From contig QIAN01000362.1 of assembly GCA_003225005.1 (NCBI GenBank), positions 1 through 32,960 of the forward strand: a stretch of DNA of 32,960 nucleotides, written 5' to 3'. This document shows, in pieces, positions 478-12,177 of this stretch. The translations under genes and the position numbers were made by a program. This stretch comes from Acidobacteriota bacterium. Its GTDB lineage: Bacteria; Acidobacteriota; Terriglobia; Terriglobales; Acidobacteriaceae. The notes under the pieces were generated by a model that saw only the letters and a list, made by a program, of their open reading frames with translations, did no database searches and had not been told where the DNA came from. The first letter of the stretch is position 1. The number at the start of each line of letters is the position of its first letter.

Positions 478-1257
478 TCATGAAGAAGGCGCGGAGACAC
501 TCGTCCTCTGCCTGAGATTTCCCTCCGTCTCAGGTTGTGCTCCGATCGTAACCAGCGGAGCTGCCGACCGGGGCTCCGGCGAGTGCAGTCCACACTCGGT
601 CTTCCTGAAGTCTGCCCAACGGCCGGCGCGCGGATCTTCGCCCGAGTGGATTGCGCGGGTGCAATGCGTGCAGCCCAGGCTGGGATAATTGCGGTCATGC
701 AGAGGGTTGTAAGGAACGTCGTGCTTGCGGACGTACTGCCATATTGCTTCGGATGTCCAGTCGGCGAGCGGGTTTATTTTCACCAACTGGAATTTCGAAT
801 CCCACTCAACTTTCTGAGCATGGGCGCGGTCAGGCGTTTGATTTCGGCGAATGGCGGTAATCCAGGCTTGCAGCTCGGCCAACTTTCCGCGCAGGGGTTC
901 GATCTTCCGAAGATTGCAGCACTGATCCGGATCCCGCTTCCAGAGTGCGGATCCGTGAAGTTGTTCCTGGTCTTCGGGTGTGAGGGCCGAGTAAACTCGC
1001 TCCACTTTAATTTCGTAACGTTGCTCGACGCGCTCTATCAAATCATAGGTCTCGGGGAATAGAAATTCAGTGTCCAGCGTGAACAAGCGAAAATTCGCAC
1101 GGACGCGGGAGGCCATATCGATAAGAGCCATGCCTTCCGCTCCGAAGGCCGAGGAGATAGCAACCTCCTGCTGGTATGTGTCGAAAGCCCAGCGCAGCAA
1201 GCGTTCGGGACGCCACGTTTCGGAAACCGCTTGCACAGCATGGATAGGTTCCCTCAC
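478..1257 (-). CDS. cysH: Adenylyl-sulfate (APS) reductase, thioredoxin-dependent, iron-sulfur type
   Basis: 259 residues, a normal length for the family. It reduces activated sulfate to sulfite in the cytoplasm. The nucleotide-binding loop reads S-S-A-F-G-A-E-G near residues 35-42. The catalytic cysteine is in E-C-G-L-H at 221-225. Two cysteine pairs, C113-C114 and C196-x2-C199, are the [4Fe-4S] ligands that mark the APS-using class rather than the cluster-less PAPS reductases of enterics, so the substrate is probably APS. After the catalytic motif there is a low-complexity tail of about 35 residues. It starts with GTG, overlapping the stop of the upstream methyltransferase gene (GTGA), with GGAG about 10 bases upstream, so translation is probably coupled. 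It is the last sulfur gene of the operon. No ATP sulfurylase is present in the window. Confidence 0.95.
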   Translation of the reverse strand: MREPIHAVQAVSETWRPERLLRWAFDTYQQEVAISSAFGAEGMALIDMASRVRANFRLFTLDTEFLFPETYDLIERVEQRYEIKVERVYSALTPEDQEQLHGSALWKRDPDQCCNLRKIEPLRGKLAELQAWITAIRRNQTPDRAHAQKVEWDSKFQLVKINPLADWTSEAIWQYVRKHDVPYNPLHDRNYPSLGCTHCTRAIHSGEDPRAGRWADFRKTECGLHSPEPRSAAPLVTIGAQPETEGNLRQRTSVSAPSS

Positions 1258-2087
1258 GCTGGTCGCTCCTGTTCTTGCCGCGCCTCTGGGTCGGGCGCGA
1301 TCGATCGTTGTCCCGCCACCAACGCGACGTATTCCTGCTGCGCACTCTGTAGCTCGATCTCGAGTCTTAGCGAAGCGTAATGCCCGAGCGCGGTCACTTC
1401 CCCGACGACAAGAAGTGTGGGGGCGGGAAGCCGAGGAGCCGAGCGTAATTCACCCACGGTTGTGTGATAGACCTGCTGATGAGGCGAGGTCGCGCGCGAG
1501 ATGAGCGCGCATGGAGTGTTTCCCTTCATCCCGGCATCGAACAGCCGGAGAGCCGTGCCCTCGTAGTCAGGACCCGGCATGTAGATCACTAGAGTGGCGC
1601 CGGAGGAGGCGAATCCACCCCAGTTGTCTTTCGTATTTTCGTCTAAACGATGGCCGGTGAGAAATACGAGCGCAGAGGAAACGTTGCGCTGGGTGAGAGG
1701 AATCTCGGCGGCGGCAGCGGCGCCTAGAGCGGCGGTAACTCCGGGAACGATTTCGAATCCGATCCCGTGCTGGCGCAATGCTTCAATCTCTTCGCCTCCC
1801 CTTCCGAAGATGAACGGGTCTCCTCCTTTGAGCCGGACCACCTGTAAGCCCGACGATGCCAGGCTGACGAGCAGGGAATTGATTTCATTCTGCGTGATAC
1901 GTTTCTGCCCGCAGCGCTTGCCGACATTCTGGATAAATGCGGTTCGCGGCGCCAATGCGAGAATGTCCGCCGAGATCAAGTCGTCGTGCAAGACCACGTC
2001 CGCTGCTTGCAAGATCTTGAGCGCCTTGAGTGTGAGCAGTTCCGGGTCACCCGGACCTGCGCCCACGAGATAAGCCTTGCCTTTCAT
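1254..2087 (-). CDS. cobA: Uroporphyrinogen-III C-methyltransferase (SUMT)
   Basis: 277 residues. It uses S-adenosylmethionine to methylate uroporphyrinogen III twice, giving precorrin-2, the branch point to siroheme. The N-terminus reads Y-L-V-G-A-G-P-G-D-P-E-L-L-T, the tetrapyrrole methylase SAM-binding loop. V-V-L-H-D-D-L-I and V-R-L-K-G-G-D-P-F-I-F-G-R-G-G-E-E follow, then V-P-G-V-T-A-A, all typical of SUMT. The start is ATG, overlapping the stop of the preceding dehydrogenase gene (ATGA), with GGAG 9-10 bases upstream. It overlaps cysH by 4 bases. The last 30 residues are Gln/Glu/Arg-rich and not family-typical. The separate SUMT and dehydrogenase/chelatase genes together equal the enteric fused CysG. 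Next to sulfite reductase, its role is siroheme supply. Confidence 0.95.
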   Translation of the reverse strand: MKGKAYLVGAGPGDPELLTLKALKILQAADVVLHDDLISADILALAPRTAFIQNVGKRCGQKRITQNEINSLLVSLASSGLQVVRLKGGDPFIFGRGGEEIEALRQHGIGFEIVPGVTAALGAAAAAEIPLTQRNVSSALVFLTGHRLDENTKDNWGGFASSGATLVIYMPGPDYEGTALRLFDAGMKGNTPCALISRATSPHQQVYHTTVGELRSAPRLPAPTLLVVGEVTALGHYASLRLEIELQSAQQEYVALVAGQRSIAPDPEARQEQERPA

Positions 2088-2695
2088 GAGGTACTCCGTT
2101 CCGGGCGAGTGCTTGACGTTTGCCTCTTGTCAAATGCTTCGCGGCTTGCCAAGGAGTGCAATAGATCTCGGCGCCGATCCGCGTCGAGATCGCCGTCGAA
2201 CAGCTTTTTTCTGTTTTCTCCGAGTTCTTCCAGCCAGCCGGCGTAATCGGGGGTGAACTGTTCTTCCAACTCGCGCCTGAGTCTTTGGGCGAGGGCGGGA
2301 CTTTGGCCTCCGGTGGAAATTGCGATCTGGAGTTGGCCACGGCGCACGACGGCGGGAAAATAGAAATCGCAATTCTCTGGATCGTCGACGGCGTTGCACA
2401 GAATGTTTCGGCGCTGGGCTTCGTTGAAAACCAGCTGGTTGAGTTCCGCTGACGCGGTCGCCGCGATTACCAGAAAGACGCCTTCGAGGTCGTTGGGGAG
2501 AAAGGCGCGCGGCTCCCACACGATAAGGCCTGCACTGGCCCAATCCATAACTGCCTGGCGCGCCTGCGGCGCAATCACTTGGACGTTGGCGCCTGCCACC
2601 AGCAGACTTTGAATCTTCGGTTCGCCTATGGTCCCGGCTCCGACCACGAGGCAGGAACGGCGTTCGAGTTTAAGGAACATCGGAAACAGCGTCAT
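2084..2695 (-). CDS. Precorrin-2 dehydrogenase / sirohydrochlorin ferrochelatase (CysG N-terminal / Met8-like)
   Basis: Converts precorrin-2 to sirohydrochlorin with NAD+ and probably inserts iron to give siroheme. The N-terminal Rossmann loop reads C-L-V-V-G-A-G-T-I-G, followed by the family pattern N-A-V-D-D-P-E-N-C-D-F-Y-F-P-A and I-A-I-S-T-G-G-Q-S-P-A-L-A. The frame is open from a GTG at 2713, but the ATG at 2695 is preferred: the GTG and the codons after it form the purine-rich GGGAGAAAGAG, an ideal ribosome site for the ATG, and the protein then begins M-T-L-F-P-M-F-L-K-L as relatives do, about 203 residues. It follows sir after a short gap and overlaps cobA by 4 bases. Whether it has chelatase activity cannot be read from the sequence. 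Confidence 0.92.
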   Translation of the reverse strand: MTLFPMFLKLERRSCLVVGAGTIGEPKIQSLLVAGANVQVIAPQARQAVMDWASAGLIVWEPRAFLPNDLEGVFLVIAATASAELNQLVFNEAQRRNILCNAVDDPENCDFYFPAVVRRGQLQIAISTGGQSPALAQRLRRELEEQFTPDYAGWLEELGENRKKLFDGDLDADRRRDLLHSLASREAFDKRQTSSTRPERSTS

Positions 2696-2730
2696 TACTC
2701 TCTTTCTCCCCACTGCTAACTTCCGAATGG

Positions 2731-4434
2731 CTAACCTTCGACAGCGTGCGGCACGCGGCCCGGCGACGGATCACGAGCCACGGCTGAGACCAACTCTCCG
2801 GCAAGAAACTCCCGCAGCTCGGCGTCGCTATGGCGCGCGAAGAATTGGCGGAGATTCTCGGCCGGACCCTTGGCGATGAGATAATGCTGCAACAGTCGCT
2901 CGATCGCGTCCGGAACTTCGGTTGCCAGACAGCGGTAGCCGATAGGACGAGCGATCGACTGATGGAGTCCGACCGCTCCACCGAGGCAGAAATAGTAGGC
3001 GTCCAACAAGCGGTCTCCGGATTTGATTTTTTTGCCTTCGATGCCGATATCGGCAATCCAGTGCTGGCCGCAACTGTTGGGGCAGCCGGTGACGTGCAGC
3101 TTCAGGTGCTGCTCAAAGCCGGGGAGTCTCTCTTCCAACTCTTCGACCAGCCAGCGAGAAAAACTCTTGGTTTCGGTGATCGCGAGCTTGCAGAATTCCG
3201 AACCGCTGCAGGCGATTGCGCCTCGCCAGAAGGCTGATCCGCCAGGTTGCAAACCGATGGCATCGAGTTCTCTAGCCAGCGTGGAGGTGTTTTGTTGGGG
3301 CACGTTCACGATCAGCAGGTTCTGCATGTTGGTGGTGCGCAGTTCACCGCTGGCACACCGGTCCGCGAGTTCGGCGGCGGCGCGCATTTGTTCGGCGGTT
3401 ATCCGTCCGCGGAGCACGGCGGCGCCGATGTAGAAAAGCCCCGGCTGTTTTTGGGGATGGATTCCGACGTGATCGCGATAGACATCGTCGGGAGGCGTCT
3501 CTTCAACCGCAGGGTCAAGAGGAAAACCGAGCCTGCTTTCCAATTGGTCTTGAAAATCGCGGGCAGTCCAGCCATGCCGAAGAAAAAGGAATTTGAGCCG
3601 TGCGCGTTCGCGGTGTTCCCGAAGTTGATCGGCGTCACGGAAAATTTCTGCAATGCCCTTCACCACAGGAATGACCTGGTTCCAGCGAACAAAGGCATTG
3701 AGGCGAGCGCTCAGATGCGGGTCGGTGGAGAGGCCTCCTCCCACGCGCAACGAAAAGCCGACTTCGGAACGCGCCCCGGTGCCGCGGCGGGTGGCGGTTA
3801 GGCCGATGTCATTGATCTCCGGATATGGGCACCAGATGTTGCAACCGGTGATGGAAATTTTGAATTTGCGGGGCAGGTTATAGAAATCATCGTTGCCTGC
3901 CAAAGCCCGCGTGACTTCCAAAGCTAATGGAGATGCGTCGCAAATCTCATGCGCATCGACTCCGGCGACGGGGCATCCAGTAACGTTGCGGGTGACGTCG
4001 CCGCAGGCTCCCATCGTGCCCAGGCCGCACTGCTCAAGGGCATCGAGCACTTCAGGCAGAGCCTCGATCGTGATCCAATGCAACTGAATGTTTTGCCTGA
4101 CCGTGAGGTCCGCCACGCCCCGGCCATATTGCTCCGTCAACTTCGCAACGGTTCGCAGTTGGCCAGAGTTGAGCAGGCCATTCGGGATTCGTATTCGGAG
4201 CATGAAACAGGGCAGCGCCTTGCCCTCGCCGCCTTGGCCGGCAACTACGCCTGCGCCGTCCCCCTGGGTGTAGACGCCCCACCAGCGAAAATATGTGCCC
4301 AGCCATTCAGGAGGAATCGACTGGAATCCCTCGCGGGCAAAGCGGCGAATTTCGCCGAGGGCCCGCCAGGGATTCTTCTCCCTTTTTAACCGTTCGACTC
4401 GCTGTGCTTTCGTTTCTTTGACCGGATTTGCCAT
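2731..4434 (-). CDS. sir: Ferredoxin-type sulfite (or nitrite) reductase, siroheme [4Fe-4S] protein
   Basis: 567 residues, the usual length for the single-subunit ferredoxin-dependent family. Two ferredoxin-like half-domains each have a conserved signature: T-V-R-Q-N-I-Q-L-H-W in the first repeat and T-T-N-M-Q-N-L-L-I-V in the second. The siroheme/[4Fe-4S] ligands are visible as A-C-S-G-S-E-F-C-K-L-A, then V-T-G-C-P-N-S-C-G-Q (Cys-x5-Cys and Cys-x3-Cys). Nitrite and sulfite reductases of this family are hard to separate by sequence. Sulfite is the inferred substrate because siroheme synthesis and APS reductase genes follow directly and a Cys-codon leader precedes it. The ATG is only five bases from the last U of a terminator-like hairpin, and the only Shine-Dalgarno-like G-rich stretch lies inside that hairpin, so expression is probably leader-controlled. 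Confidence 0.93.
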   Translation of the reverse strand: MANPVKETKAQRVERLKREKNPWRALGEIRRFAREGFQSIPPEWLGTYFRWWGVYTQGDGAGVVAGQGGEGKALPCFMLRIRIPNGLLNSGQLRTVAKLTEQYGRGVADLTVRQNIQLHWITIEALPEVLDALEQCGLGTMGACGDVTRNVTGCPVAGVDAHEICDASPLALEVTRALAGNDDFYNLPRKFKISITGCNIWCPYPEINDIGLTATRRGTGARSEVGFSLRVGGGLSTDPHLSARLNAFVRWNQVIPVVKGIAEIFRDADQLREHRERARLKFLFLRHGWTARDFQDQLESRLGFPLDPAVEETPPDDVYRDHVGIHPQKQPGLFYIGAAVLRGRITAEQMRAAAELADRCASGELRTTNMQNLLIVNVPQQNTSTLARELDAIGLQPGGSAFWRGAIACSGSEFCKLAITETKSFSRWLVEELEERLPGFEQHLKLHVTGCPNSCGQHWIADIGIEGKKIKSGDRLLDAYYFCLGGAVGLHQSIARPIGYRCLATEVPDAIERLLQHYLIAKGPAENLRQFFARHSDAELREFLAGELVSAVARDPSPGRVPHAVEG

Positions 4435-4484
4435 AAAAAGTAAAAACCCACCGCCGGCAGGTAAGGTCTGCCAGCGATGGGTTT
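4435..4484 (-). terminator. Attenuator terminator hairpin abutting the sir start codon
   Basis: On the minus strand the 5' arm (4484-4468) and 3' arm (4460-4444) form a 17-bp stem in which every position pairs, two of them as G-U wobbles, around a 7-base loop. It is followed by TTTTTACTTTTT and then the sir ATG at 4434. This is a textbook intrinsic terminator located between promoter and gene, so it makes sense as an attenuator. The 3' arm also holds the only G-rich stretch (GGCGGTGGG) upstream of sir, so the hairpin may block translation too. An alternative pairing of its 5' arm is described under the leader peptide. Confidence 0.85.
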
Positions 4485-4511
4485 GATCAGTGCTGAGTTA
4501 CTAAGTAATTC

Positions 4512-4595
4512 TTAGATCATCTGCTTCCCCATGCCAGAAGACACACGCGTACAACAACAAGTACACGTGCACATCTGGATGGAAGCCGACATCAT
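4512..4595 (-). CDS. Cys-codon leader peptide of the sulfate assimilation operon (27 aa)
   Basis: ATG-ATG start at 4595, stop TAA at 4512. Residues 9-15 read C-T-C-T-C-C-C: five Cys codons in seven. The ORF sits between a consensus promoter and the terminator before sir, and starts about 7 bases after the -10 box with no Shine-Dalgarno, so it is probably leaderless. The RNA can fold three ways. Segment 1 (4582-4574, CCATCCAGA) pairs with segment 2 (4538-4529, TCTGGcATGG), with the Cys codons in the loop. Segment 2 can instead pair with segment 3, using ATGGG with CCCAT (4481-4477) and TCTG with CAGA (4470-4467). Segment 3 is the terminator 5' arm. A ribosome stalled on Cys codons would cover segment 1 and favour antitermination. 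Function is inferred from architecture; the peptide itself is probably only a sensor. Confidence 0.82.
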   Translation of the reverse strand: MMSASIQMCTCTCCCTRVSSGMGKQMI

Positions 4596-4602
4596 CAGGG
4601 TG

Positions 4603-4631
4603 ATAGTAAGTGACGCCCGACGGGCTGTCAA
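4603..4631 (-). promoter_or_regulatory. Sigma-70-type promoter of the Cys leader / sir operon
   Basis: On the minus strand TTGACA (4631-4626) is separated by exactly 17 bases from TACTAT (4608-4603), five of six matches to TATAAT. Seven bases later comes the ATG of the Cys leader ORF at 4595, so transcription should start at or within a base or two of the start codon. Confidence 0.78.
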
Positions 4632-10698: not shown

Positions 10699-12177
10699 CT
10701 AGAATCCGGGCGATTGGTCGGTGTGCGCCGCTTCTGGCGTCCCCACCGAGTCCGACTGAAGCGGAGGTTCAACAGGTATCAGGCGCGGTTTTCGCTGTCC
10801 GCGGCGGCGATGAGTATTCTTCTCCGGGGCGAAGCGGGCGTGGAGGCGGCGAACTGCCTCAGCGACGTCGCGTTCGTGGATCACAAAACTTAAGCTTAAT
10901 TCTGAAGCCCCCTGCGAGATCATCCGTACATTGATACCGGCATCGCCCAGTGCCGTGAATGCCCGGGCCGCAATCCCAGCGCGCCCGCGAATGTTTTCTC
11001 CCAGCAGGCAGACGATCGCTTGCTTGTCCTCGACGGTGACCGCCGCGATCTCTTGCAAATTAGCCAATAAGTCGTCTGTGTTCTGGCCCGTGCGCAGGGT
11101 AAAGGAAACGCTGGCCTCGGAAACGGCAACCAAGTCCGCGCCGCACGCACCGCGATGCAGAATGTGAAAAACCTCCTGGAGAAACCAGTGCGGCGCCGAC
11201 TCACGCGGGGCAGTCAGTGTAACTGTGCTGATGTTTTTCCTGGCCGCGATGGCGGTGAAAACCGAGCGTCCTCGCGGAGGCTGTGACGTGATGCGCGTTC
11301 CAGGACTCTTGGGATTGCGGGAGTTGAGAACCAGGACCGGGATGTTTTTCTCCATCGCCGGCACCAAGGTGGCTGGATGGAGAACTTTCGCGCCGAAGTG
11401 CGCCATCTCCTGCGCTTCGCGGAAGCTGACGCGGCGCAGGCAATGAGCCTGCGGACACAATAACGGGTCCGTCGTCATGATTCCATCCACGTCGGTCCAA
11501 ATCTCGATGGAAGAGGCATTGATTCCAGCCGCAATCAGGGCGGCGGAAAAATCCGAACCACCGCGCCCCAGCGTGGTCGGAATGCCATCGCGTGTCGCGG
11601 AAATGAAACCCGCCAGCACCGGCAGTTGCTGATCAATCAGAAGGGGACGAATCCCAGCTCGCATGCGTTCGTAGGTGTCGCTGTAGTGGGGCGTGGCCCG
11701 TGTGAAATGGCCATTGGTCAGGATGTACTCGCGCGAATCCAACCAAAGTGCGGGCAACCCTCGTGCCGACAAGGCAGAGGCGACAATCTGGCTGGACATA
11801 AGTTCGCCGAAAGAAAGCAGATAATCCGTGCTGCGCGCCGAGAGTTCGCGGATGGCGGCAATGCCCCGGGTGAACTGCTCCAGGACCTCGAACTGCGGGT
11901 CGAGCTTAAGGCGCATTCCGCGGAAACGATCTTCGCCCAATAGCTCCCGCGCCGTGTCGTAATGACGCTGCCGCAGCCCCCGCACTTGAGCCAGCGCAGA
12001 TTCGCCGTCCCCGCAGGCGGCGGTCTGTCCGAGCGTGAGTAATTGGTCCGTGACTCCGTGGAACGCGCTTACCACGACGACCGGTCGGCGTCGCATCCGG
12101 CTCCGTACTATGCCCGCGACTCTCTCAATGGCTTCGGCGTCTTGCACGGATGTCCCGCCAAACTTCATGACCAGCAT
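10699..12177 (-). CDS. lysC: Aspartate kinase (monofunctional)
   Basis: 492 residues. It phosphorylates aspartate, the first step to lysine, threonine, methionine and isoleucine. K-F-G-G-T-S-V at residues 5-11 is the kinase signature, with S-F-G-E-L-M-S-S and T-T-L-G-R-G-G-S-D-F-S-A further on. The C-terminal third carries two ACT domains: one from about N-I-S-T-V-T-L, the second with G-R-A-G-I-A-A-R-A-F and V-R-M-I-S-Q-G-A-S-E-L-S. These are the usual sites of lysine or threonine feedback. A basic, then acidic tail of about 40 residues after the second ACT is not typical. The ATG has a weak GACGGA upstream. An attenuator with a Thr/Ile-rich leader ORF precedes it, pointing to control by threonine (and perhaps isoleucine). 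It stands alone, without asd or hom nearby. Confidence 0.95.
   Translation of the reverse strand: MLVMKFGGTSVQDAEAIERVAGIVRSRMRRRPVVVVSAFHGVTDQLLTLGQTAACGDGESALAQVRGLRQRHYDTARELLGEDRFRGMRLKLDPQFEVLEQFTRGIAAIRELSARSTDYLLSFGELMSSQIVASALSARGLPALWLDSREYILTNGHFTRATPHYSDTYERMRAGIRPLLIDQQLPVLAGFISATRDGIPTTLGRGGSDFSAALIAAGINASSIEIWTDVDGIMTTDPLLCPQAHCLRRVSFREAQEMAHFGAKVLHPATLVPAMEKNIPVLVLNSRNPKSPGTRITSQPPRGRSVFTAIAARKNISTVTLTAPRESAPHWFLQEVFHILHRGACGADLVAVSEASVSFTLRTGQNTDDLLANLQEIAAVTVEDKQAIVCLLGENIRGRAGIAARAFTALGDAGINVRMISQGASELSLSFVIHERDVAEAVRRLHARFAPEKNTHRRRGQRKPRLIPVEPPLQSDSVGTPEAAHTDQSPGF

Follow-up and report, generated by a model that had tools for sequence, protein, structure and literature searches.

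A predicted cysteine-codon transcription attenuator before the sulfite reductase operon of Acidobacteriota

The window analysed here, a stretch of 32,960 nucleotides from a soil acidobacterium, holds four minus-strand genes that nearly abut or overlap by a few bases: sir (2731..4434), of the siroheme/4Fe-4S sulfite (nitrite) reductase family, a gene of the cysG N-terminal type (precorrin-2 dehydrogenase/siroheme synthase N domain; 2084..2713), cobA for uroporphyrinogen-III C-methyltransferase (1254..2087) and cysH for (P)APS reductase (478..1257). This order, sir-cysG(N)-cobA-cysH, agrees with the sir-siroheme-cobA-cysH arrangement given in the first-pass annotation, and because the contig starts at window base 1 the operon may extend past cysH. 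The solved sequence nearest to sir is 1zj8, deposited as the ferredoxin-dependent nitrite reductase NirA, a mycobacterial enzyme that we take to be a sulfite reductase. Homologues of cysG-N and cobA were found on the strand of sir in 85 and 88 of 94 loci, respectively, a count that was not deduplicated and includes three copies of the window locus. The minus-strand leader of the operon lies between sir and gltB (4857, plus strand). Since gltB is divergent, there is no same-strand gene upstream that a terminator in the leader could serve.

A sigma-70-type promoter-like sequence, TTGACA-N17-TACTAT, matches the consensus on the minus strand at 4603..4631 (-35 at 4631-4626, -10 at 4608-4603, spacer 17). 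It is the only promoter-like site between 4200 and 5000, a region in which shuffled sequences held 0.4 on average. An ATG 7 nt past the -10 opens a minus-strand leader peptide ORF of 27 codons, MMSASIQMCTCTCCCTRVSSGMGKQMI followed by a stop codon (4512..4595), which is probably leaderless; five of seven consecutive codons in it (C-T-C-T-C-C-C; 4551..4571) specify cysteine, one as UGC and four as UGU. Four segments of the same strand can form alternative stems. Segment 1 (4561..4583) would pair with 4552-4528 to give a protector or pause hairpin (1:2). Segment 2 (CTTCTGGCATGGG; 4528..4540) mimics the 3' arm of the terminator and has either segment 1 or segment 3 as its partner. Segment 3 (AAACCCATCGCTGGCAG; 4468..4484) is the terminator 5' arm, and segment 4 (CTGCCGGCGGTGGGTTT; 4444..4460) is the 3' arm of this stem, which covaries in relatives. 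The terminator stem (4484-4444) consists of 17 pairs, two of them G-U, around a 7-nt loop, and is followed by a T-rich tract (4435..4443) that abuts the sir start codon, the hairpin ending 9 nt before the sir AUG. Promoter, spacer, Cys-rich ORF, 17-bp stem and T-tract had all been proposed in the first-pass annotation and were recovered at their places.

The leader as a whole (4597-4432) folded at -70.2 kcal/mol, compared with -44.4±4.0 kcal/mol for shuffled sequences (z -6.4; 0 of 200 as stable). The terminator hairpin came to -31.4 kcal/mol. The 1:2 hairpin (4583-4561 with 4552-4528) reached -30.0 kcal/mol (z -3.8) and is more extensive than the pairing claimed earlier; in the window it takes in the first Cys codons and leaves the last ones in its loop. 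The mutually exclusive 2:3 hairpin was also found (4540-4528 with 4481-4468; -17.5 kcal/mol), but its stability was not above that of shuffles (z -0.2), and the duplex of segments 2 and 3 was unexceptional in the window taken alone (p 0.16). Because 2:3 in the window is no better than shuffles, support for this pairing comes from relatives and not from the window sequence alone.

Among 200 sampled genomes of the family, 134 carried sir (own genome included; E 1e-60). The closest of 80 named sir loci came mostly from acidobacterial MAGs, in line with the earlier assignment of the DNA to an apparent acidobacterium, and the farther ones also included Rokubacteria and Methylomirabilota. The upstream sequences examined were those of the 80 named loci and of the 30 best loci of the family, together with 112 further regions. 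After removal of duplicates, of regions with less than 150 nt upstream and of those named or best loci that contained N runs, 211 regions were left. Of these, 193 form the Acidobacteriota set; the other 18 comprise 16 from Rokubacteria/Methylomirabilota and two titled Acidobacteria, L062 and L064. The set of 193 was not curated by name and contains L102, titled Opitutia. The strict rule demanded a short ORF with either three consecutive Cys codons or no fewer than 4 within 8, and a downstream terminator with 4 or more T in 8. Under this rule, a poly-Cys leader and a terminator preceded sir in 128 of the 193 distinct Acidobacteriota-set regions. Among dinucleotide shuffles 4 of 3860 passed; none of the 193 reverse complements and none of the 18 others did. 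Six more of the 193 had a leader without a terminator and 59 failed otherwise; the leader part alone occurred in 10 of 193 reverse complements and 55 of 3860 shuffles. Some ORF with at least 3 Cys in 8 codons, not convincing in every case, was present in 38 of the 65 regions that missed the strict rule, and 27 had none. These counts exclude a chance origin of the predicted leader and terminator before sir. Upstream of sir paralogues (L224-L231) Cys-rich ORFs of this kind were found in 0 of 8 cases, a weak control, the 400 nt before the matched part lying about half inside the gene.

In the closest group, segment 2 has the consensus CTGGCGCGGGG; it mimics the 3' arm of the terminator, CTGGCGGTGGG, and pairing with the 5' arm, CCCACCGCCAG, is possible. 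In many leaders a GCCAG that could likewise pair with segment 2 directly precedes the Cys run, and L016 shows a matching change across all segments (TTTGCCGG, CCGGCAAA, CACTTGCCG, GGCAAGTGGG). In alignment A1, comprising 45 of 63 sequences of the closest-group type, 94.1% of the cells of the terminator stem were paired, and 7 of its 13 pairs had changed on both sides, a level that none of 500 shuffles reached. The antiterminator was 87.5% paired with little column covariation in the closest group, whose core is nearly invariant; its count of double-change pairs was reached by 51 of 500 shuffles. The comparison of sir upstream regions suggested by the first-pass annotation thus bore out the conserved Cys run and the covarying terminator stem, and gave weak column covariation for the antiterminator.

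Since the column covariation of the antiterminator was unconvincing, we compared the pairing of segments from the same genome with that of segments permuted between genomes. The resulting z values are not probabilities, as related genomes share composition, and unaffected combinations from the same genomes served as control. In two larger samplings, the region before the Cys run paired with segment 2 (1:2) at z -8.4 to -12.8 for own versus permuted segments, and segment 2 with the terminator 5' arm (2:3) at z -2.8 to -4.8. The z values of five further combinations lay between -1.4 and +1.6, so that only 1:2 and 2:3 were better than permuted. In the smallest sampling (6-11 representatives) the values were -1.8 to -4.2 for 1:2, -0.2 to -3.3 for 2:3 and -2.5 to +1.6 for the controls; this sampling was noisy, with z -0.2 for 2:3 in one of eight replicates and -2.2 and -2.5 in single control replicates. 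By this comparison of sequences, the predicted 1:2 and 2:3 pairings are genome-specific, if with more noise in the small sampling, and the 2:3 pairing claimed earlier has support in the relatives.

Promoter-like sites scoring 8.5 or more in the 75 nt ahead of the leader were present at 71 of the 128 strict leaders, compared with 2.5% in shuffles. The first-pass annotation had named transcription starting downstream of the ORF as evidence that would speak against its reading; the consensus matches in the window and at these 71 leaders lie upstream of the ORF instead. The first in-frame ATG stood 6-11 nt past the -10 in 63 of the 71 promoter-bearing leaders, and an ATG at this distance was found in the +1 frame in 2 and in the +2 frame in 0 of 71. 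Transcription commonly starts approximately 6-8 nt after the -10, so an ATG at 6-11 nt leaves almost no 5' untranslated region, and the leader ORF is probably leaderless. Codon use was compared in those 71 loci whose sir sequence was available: their leader Cys codons comprised 299 UGU and 138 UGC, in contrast to 88 UGU and 740 UGC in sir of the same loci, and the UGU share was higher in the leader than in sir at 71 of 71 loci. Possible benefits of UGU are that the codons stay free of structure or that their decoding becomes more sensitive.

Twenty of the 65 regions that missed the strict rule were read farther upstream (199,481 bases). In seven of them (L297, L299, L301-L304, L315) a poly-Cys ORF with a terminator was located at -528 to -3662 from sir; the other strand gave 0 matches and three shuffled sets gave 0, 1 and 0. 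The remaining 13 longer stretches showed no leader, with L298 cut by the contig end and L300 having cysH directly upstream. In L297 the leader is followed by a cysD-like gene (first gene PF01507), cysN, cysH and sir, an order taken from translations, and in L301 and L315 it lies directly before a PF03601 gene. L064 has its leader before cysH at the operon head, with a TauE-type gene after cysH, and was the only distant match among the loci scanned whole; no leader was seen in L062, also titled Acidobacteria. In part of the loci led by another gene, the device is placed at the operon head. In L301-L304 and L315, a poly-Cys attenuator lies upstream of the gene for a PF03601 membrane protein that precedes sir (Pfam checked in L301 and L315), which suggests a sulfur-related role of this protein.

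Several observations concern the limits of the distribution. In L217, from another family of the phylum, the ORF MCCLACMCCCFFSGERRRSENVCVCKTVKM and a strong terminator stand before a sir relative (43% identity); the family may thus not be the limit of the device. The sole Rfam result at permissive thresholds was a sub-threshold match to MicC in this locus, which we rejected. L102, titled Opitutia bacterium (a Verrucomicrobia-type label), carries a sir 63% identical to that of the window behind a CPCCRCC leader; transfer or a binning error would explain this. The sir genes of Rokubacteria/Methylomirabilota are without a poly-Cys ORF. Ten loci (L066, L068, L085, L088, L089, L092, L094, L100, L103 and L051) share a conserved AAGGCnAAAGTCGAAG...GAC..AAGCCGG element approximately 100 nt before sir, followed in alignment A2 by a terminator-like inverted repeat; of these loci, L066 and L088 were compared with Rfam, and neither matched a family.

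Elsewhere in the window, the minus-strand stretch 12372-12210 before lysC (10699-12177) holds an ORF with Thr and Ile codons, MMRSLRVSIAMMTLISTATISATRDPAGWIRLS followed by a stop codon. This ORF starts 9 nt after TATAAA and is followed by CCCACCGGCAACTCCGGTGGG-CTTTTTATT, which ends 48 nt before the aspartokinase gene. A second attenuator, responding to Thr/Ile, is possible at this position. Among 30 aspartokinase loci listed from 75 genomes with matches (one of them L317, the window copy), short ORFs rich in Thr or Ile were flagged at L318, L319, L320 and L322 and terminators at L317, L318, L319, L321 and L343; the rule of four of one residue in 9 leaves the window's own lysC-upstream ORF unflagged. 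A genome-wide search of the window's own genome for Cys leaders with the pattern TGYTGYTGYTGY, which is blind to leaders with three consecutive Cys and thus also to the sir leader, gave 62 matches versus 45 for the reversed pattern. Inspection of 56 loci of such matches left only L273 passing a crude ORF-plus-terminator flag, and we did not believe this candidate, which has no promoter and whose Cys run belongs to a 104-codon frame that ends 16 codons later. A TIGR02039 search of this genome gave no CysD. The cysK/M-family loci (7 testable of 8 loci listed of 10 matches) and the SulP locus of the same genome (L288-L296) gave no convincing Cys leader, with upstream sequence of only 9 nt in L290 and 296 nt in L293; L292 held one 62-residue frame with scattered Cys.

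The features of a trp/his-type attenuator are present at the window locus: a Cys-rich leader ORF, an intrinsic terminator, exclusive 1:2 and 2:3 pairings and an upstream promoter (consensus match). Together with the Cys run, the conservation and the placement before a sulfate-assimilation operon, they form the sequence basis on which we consider the leader very probably to be a ribosome-mediated transcription attenuator that senses charged tRNA-Cys, a result that supports the attenuator interpretation of the first-pass annotation. From this basis we infer ribosome stalling, leaderless initiation, termination or read-through and a response to cysteine. The transcript would begin at about the start codon of the poly-Cys ORF and receive a ribosome at its nearly leaderless 5' end. 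With ample Cys-tRNA, the ribosome would run to the stop codon, segment 2 would be masked or bound to segment 1, and the 3:4 terminator would form and halt RNA polymerase just before sir; the terminator would also be left to form if no ribosome were present. With scarce Cys-tRNA, the ribosome would stall on the Cys run and mask segment 1, so that segment 2 could pair with segment 3, block the terminator and allow transcription of sir-cysG(N)-cobA-cysH. The genes for making the sulfur of cysteine would thus probably be switched on only at cysteine shortage.

Alternatively, the 3:4 hairpin could act in translation, mainly by making the ribosome-binding region of sir inaccessible, a mode of control proposed for the poly-Cys uORFs of mycobacteria. 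The motif GGTGGG within the terminator 3' arm and the short distance from the window hairpin to the sir AUG are consistent with such translational attenuation, and PMC13236596 describes cysteine genes of M. smegmatis as being under translation attenuation. However, T-rich tracts follow the hairpins (partly by construction, given the T requirement of the caller), the scored distance between hairpin end and sir ranges between 3 and 256 nt, and the same form of device stands before cysD, cysH or PF03601 genes, all of which make a mainly translational mode of action unlikely in our view.

No part of the peptide is as constant as the Cys run, which would fit if the peptide were itself a functional product, such as a metal or redox sensor, behind which the hairpin acted as an unregulated terminator. 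We give this very little credence: the length and remaining sequence of the peptide vary between relatives, the C-terminal coding stretch conserved in the closest group (CTGGCGCGGGG) is the very part that pairs with the terminator arm, and peptide function would not need UGU over UGC. Even less credible to us is a metabolite riboswitch or protein-binding leader with an incidental ORF. The strong structure of the leader would fit it, but Rfam returned 0 matches for the window at gathering score and none for L016, L054 and L097 at E up to 0.5, and in diverged relatives the stem sequences differ while the Cys run is kept.

Extending the transcription attenuator beyond this operon, we propose tentatively, doubting it slightly more than we believe it, that attenuation through leaderless leader peptides is a general regime in Acidobacteriota. 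Closely following RNA polymerase, ribosomes would load directly at a 5' AUG, and intrinsic termination would depend on the control codons (UGU for cysteine; Thr/Ile before lysC), with charged tRNA-Cys governing cysteine synthesis at the operon head. Such a regime would be convergent with the leaderless, translational poly-Cys uORFs of mycobacteria.

The first-pass annotation had supposed that such a system may be undescribed in acidobacteria, and our searches of the open-licence PMC literature showed no Cys attenuator described in Acidobacteriota; in Naville 2010 (PMC2965389), hardly any function is assigned to predicted acidobacterial attenuators. The predicted device represents a complete and widely conserved control layout for sulfate assimilation and makes cysteine control testable in organisms that are hard to culture. 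Its more than 100 natural variants offer material on the co-evolution of stall codons, protector hairpin and terminator. It is also an apparent case of leaderless initiation as part of an attenuator with an intrinsic terminator.

The classical attenuators of the trp, his and thr operons of Proteobacteria combine a leader ORF rich in codons for the product of the pathway with exclusive stems and an intrinsic terminator. The leader described here likewise has a product-codon ORF, mutually exclusive stems and a terminator before the first biosynthetic gene. It differs in that the control amino acid is cysteine, the phylum is Acidobacteriota, and the start codon lies nearly at the inferred 5' end, which leaves no room for a Shine-Dalgarno sequence.

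Poly-cysteine leaderless uORFs of mycobacteria were reportedly described by Canestrari in 2020. They share with our leaders a short ORF with a Cys run before sulfur or cysteine genes and are leaderless, as the ORFs here probably are. Leaderless Cys-rich uORFs in mycobacteria are also proposed in PMC4633059. According to Seliverstov 2005 (PMC1262725), the Cys leaders of Actinobacteria lack obvious terminators and the aligned Mycobacterium leaders have no conserved terminator hairpins, in contrast to the conserved intrinsic terminator and antiterminator found here; control there is called translation attenuation in PMC13236596.

The motif uORFC-8-2 lies before cysS in Rhodobacterales and, according to PMC8632094, is a predicted Cys transcription attenuator, with ribosome-mediated control through Cys codons and an intrinsic terminator as predicted for our leaders. 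This alphaproteobacterial uORF has two tandem Cys codons (positions 14-15), mostly UGC, before the gene for cysteinyl-tRNA synthetase. The device described here stands before sir, cysD, cysH or PF03601 genes and so falls outside the definition of uORFC-8-2 by its cysS location and two tandem Cys; it has longer Cys runs, mostly of UGU, before genes of sulfate and sulfite reduction, and it belongs to another phylum.
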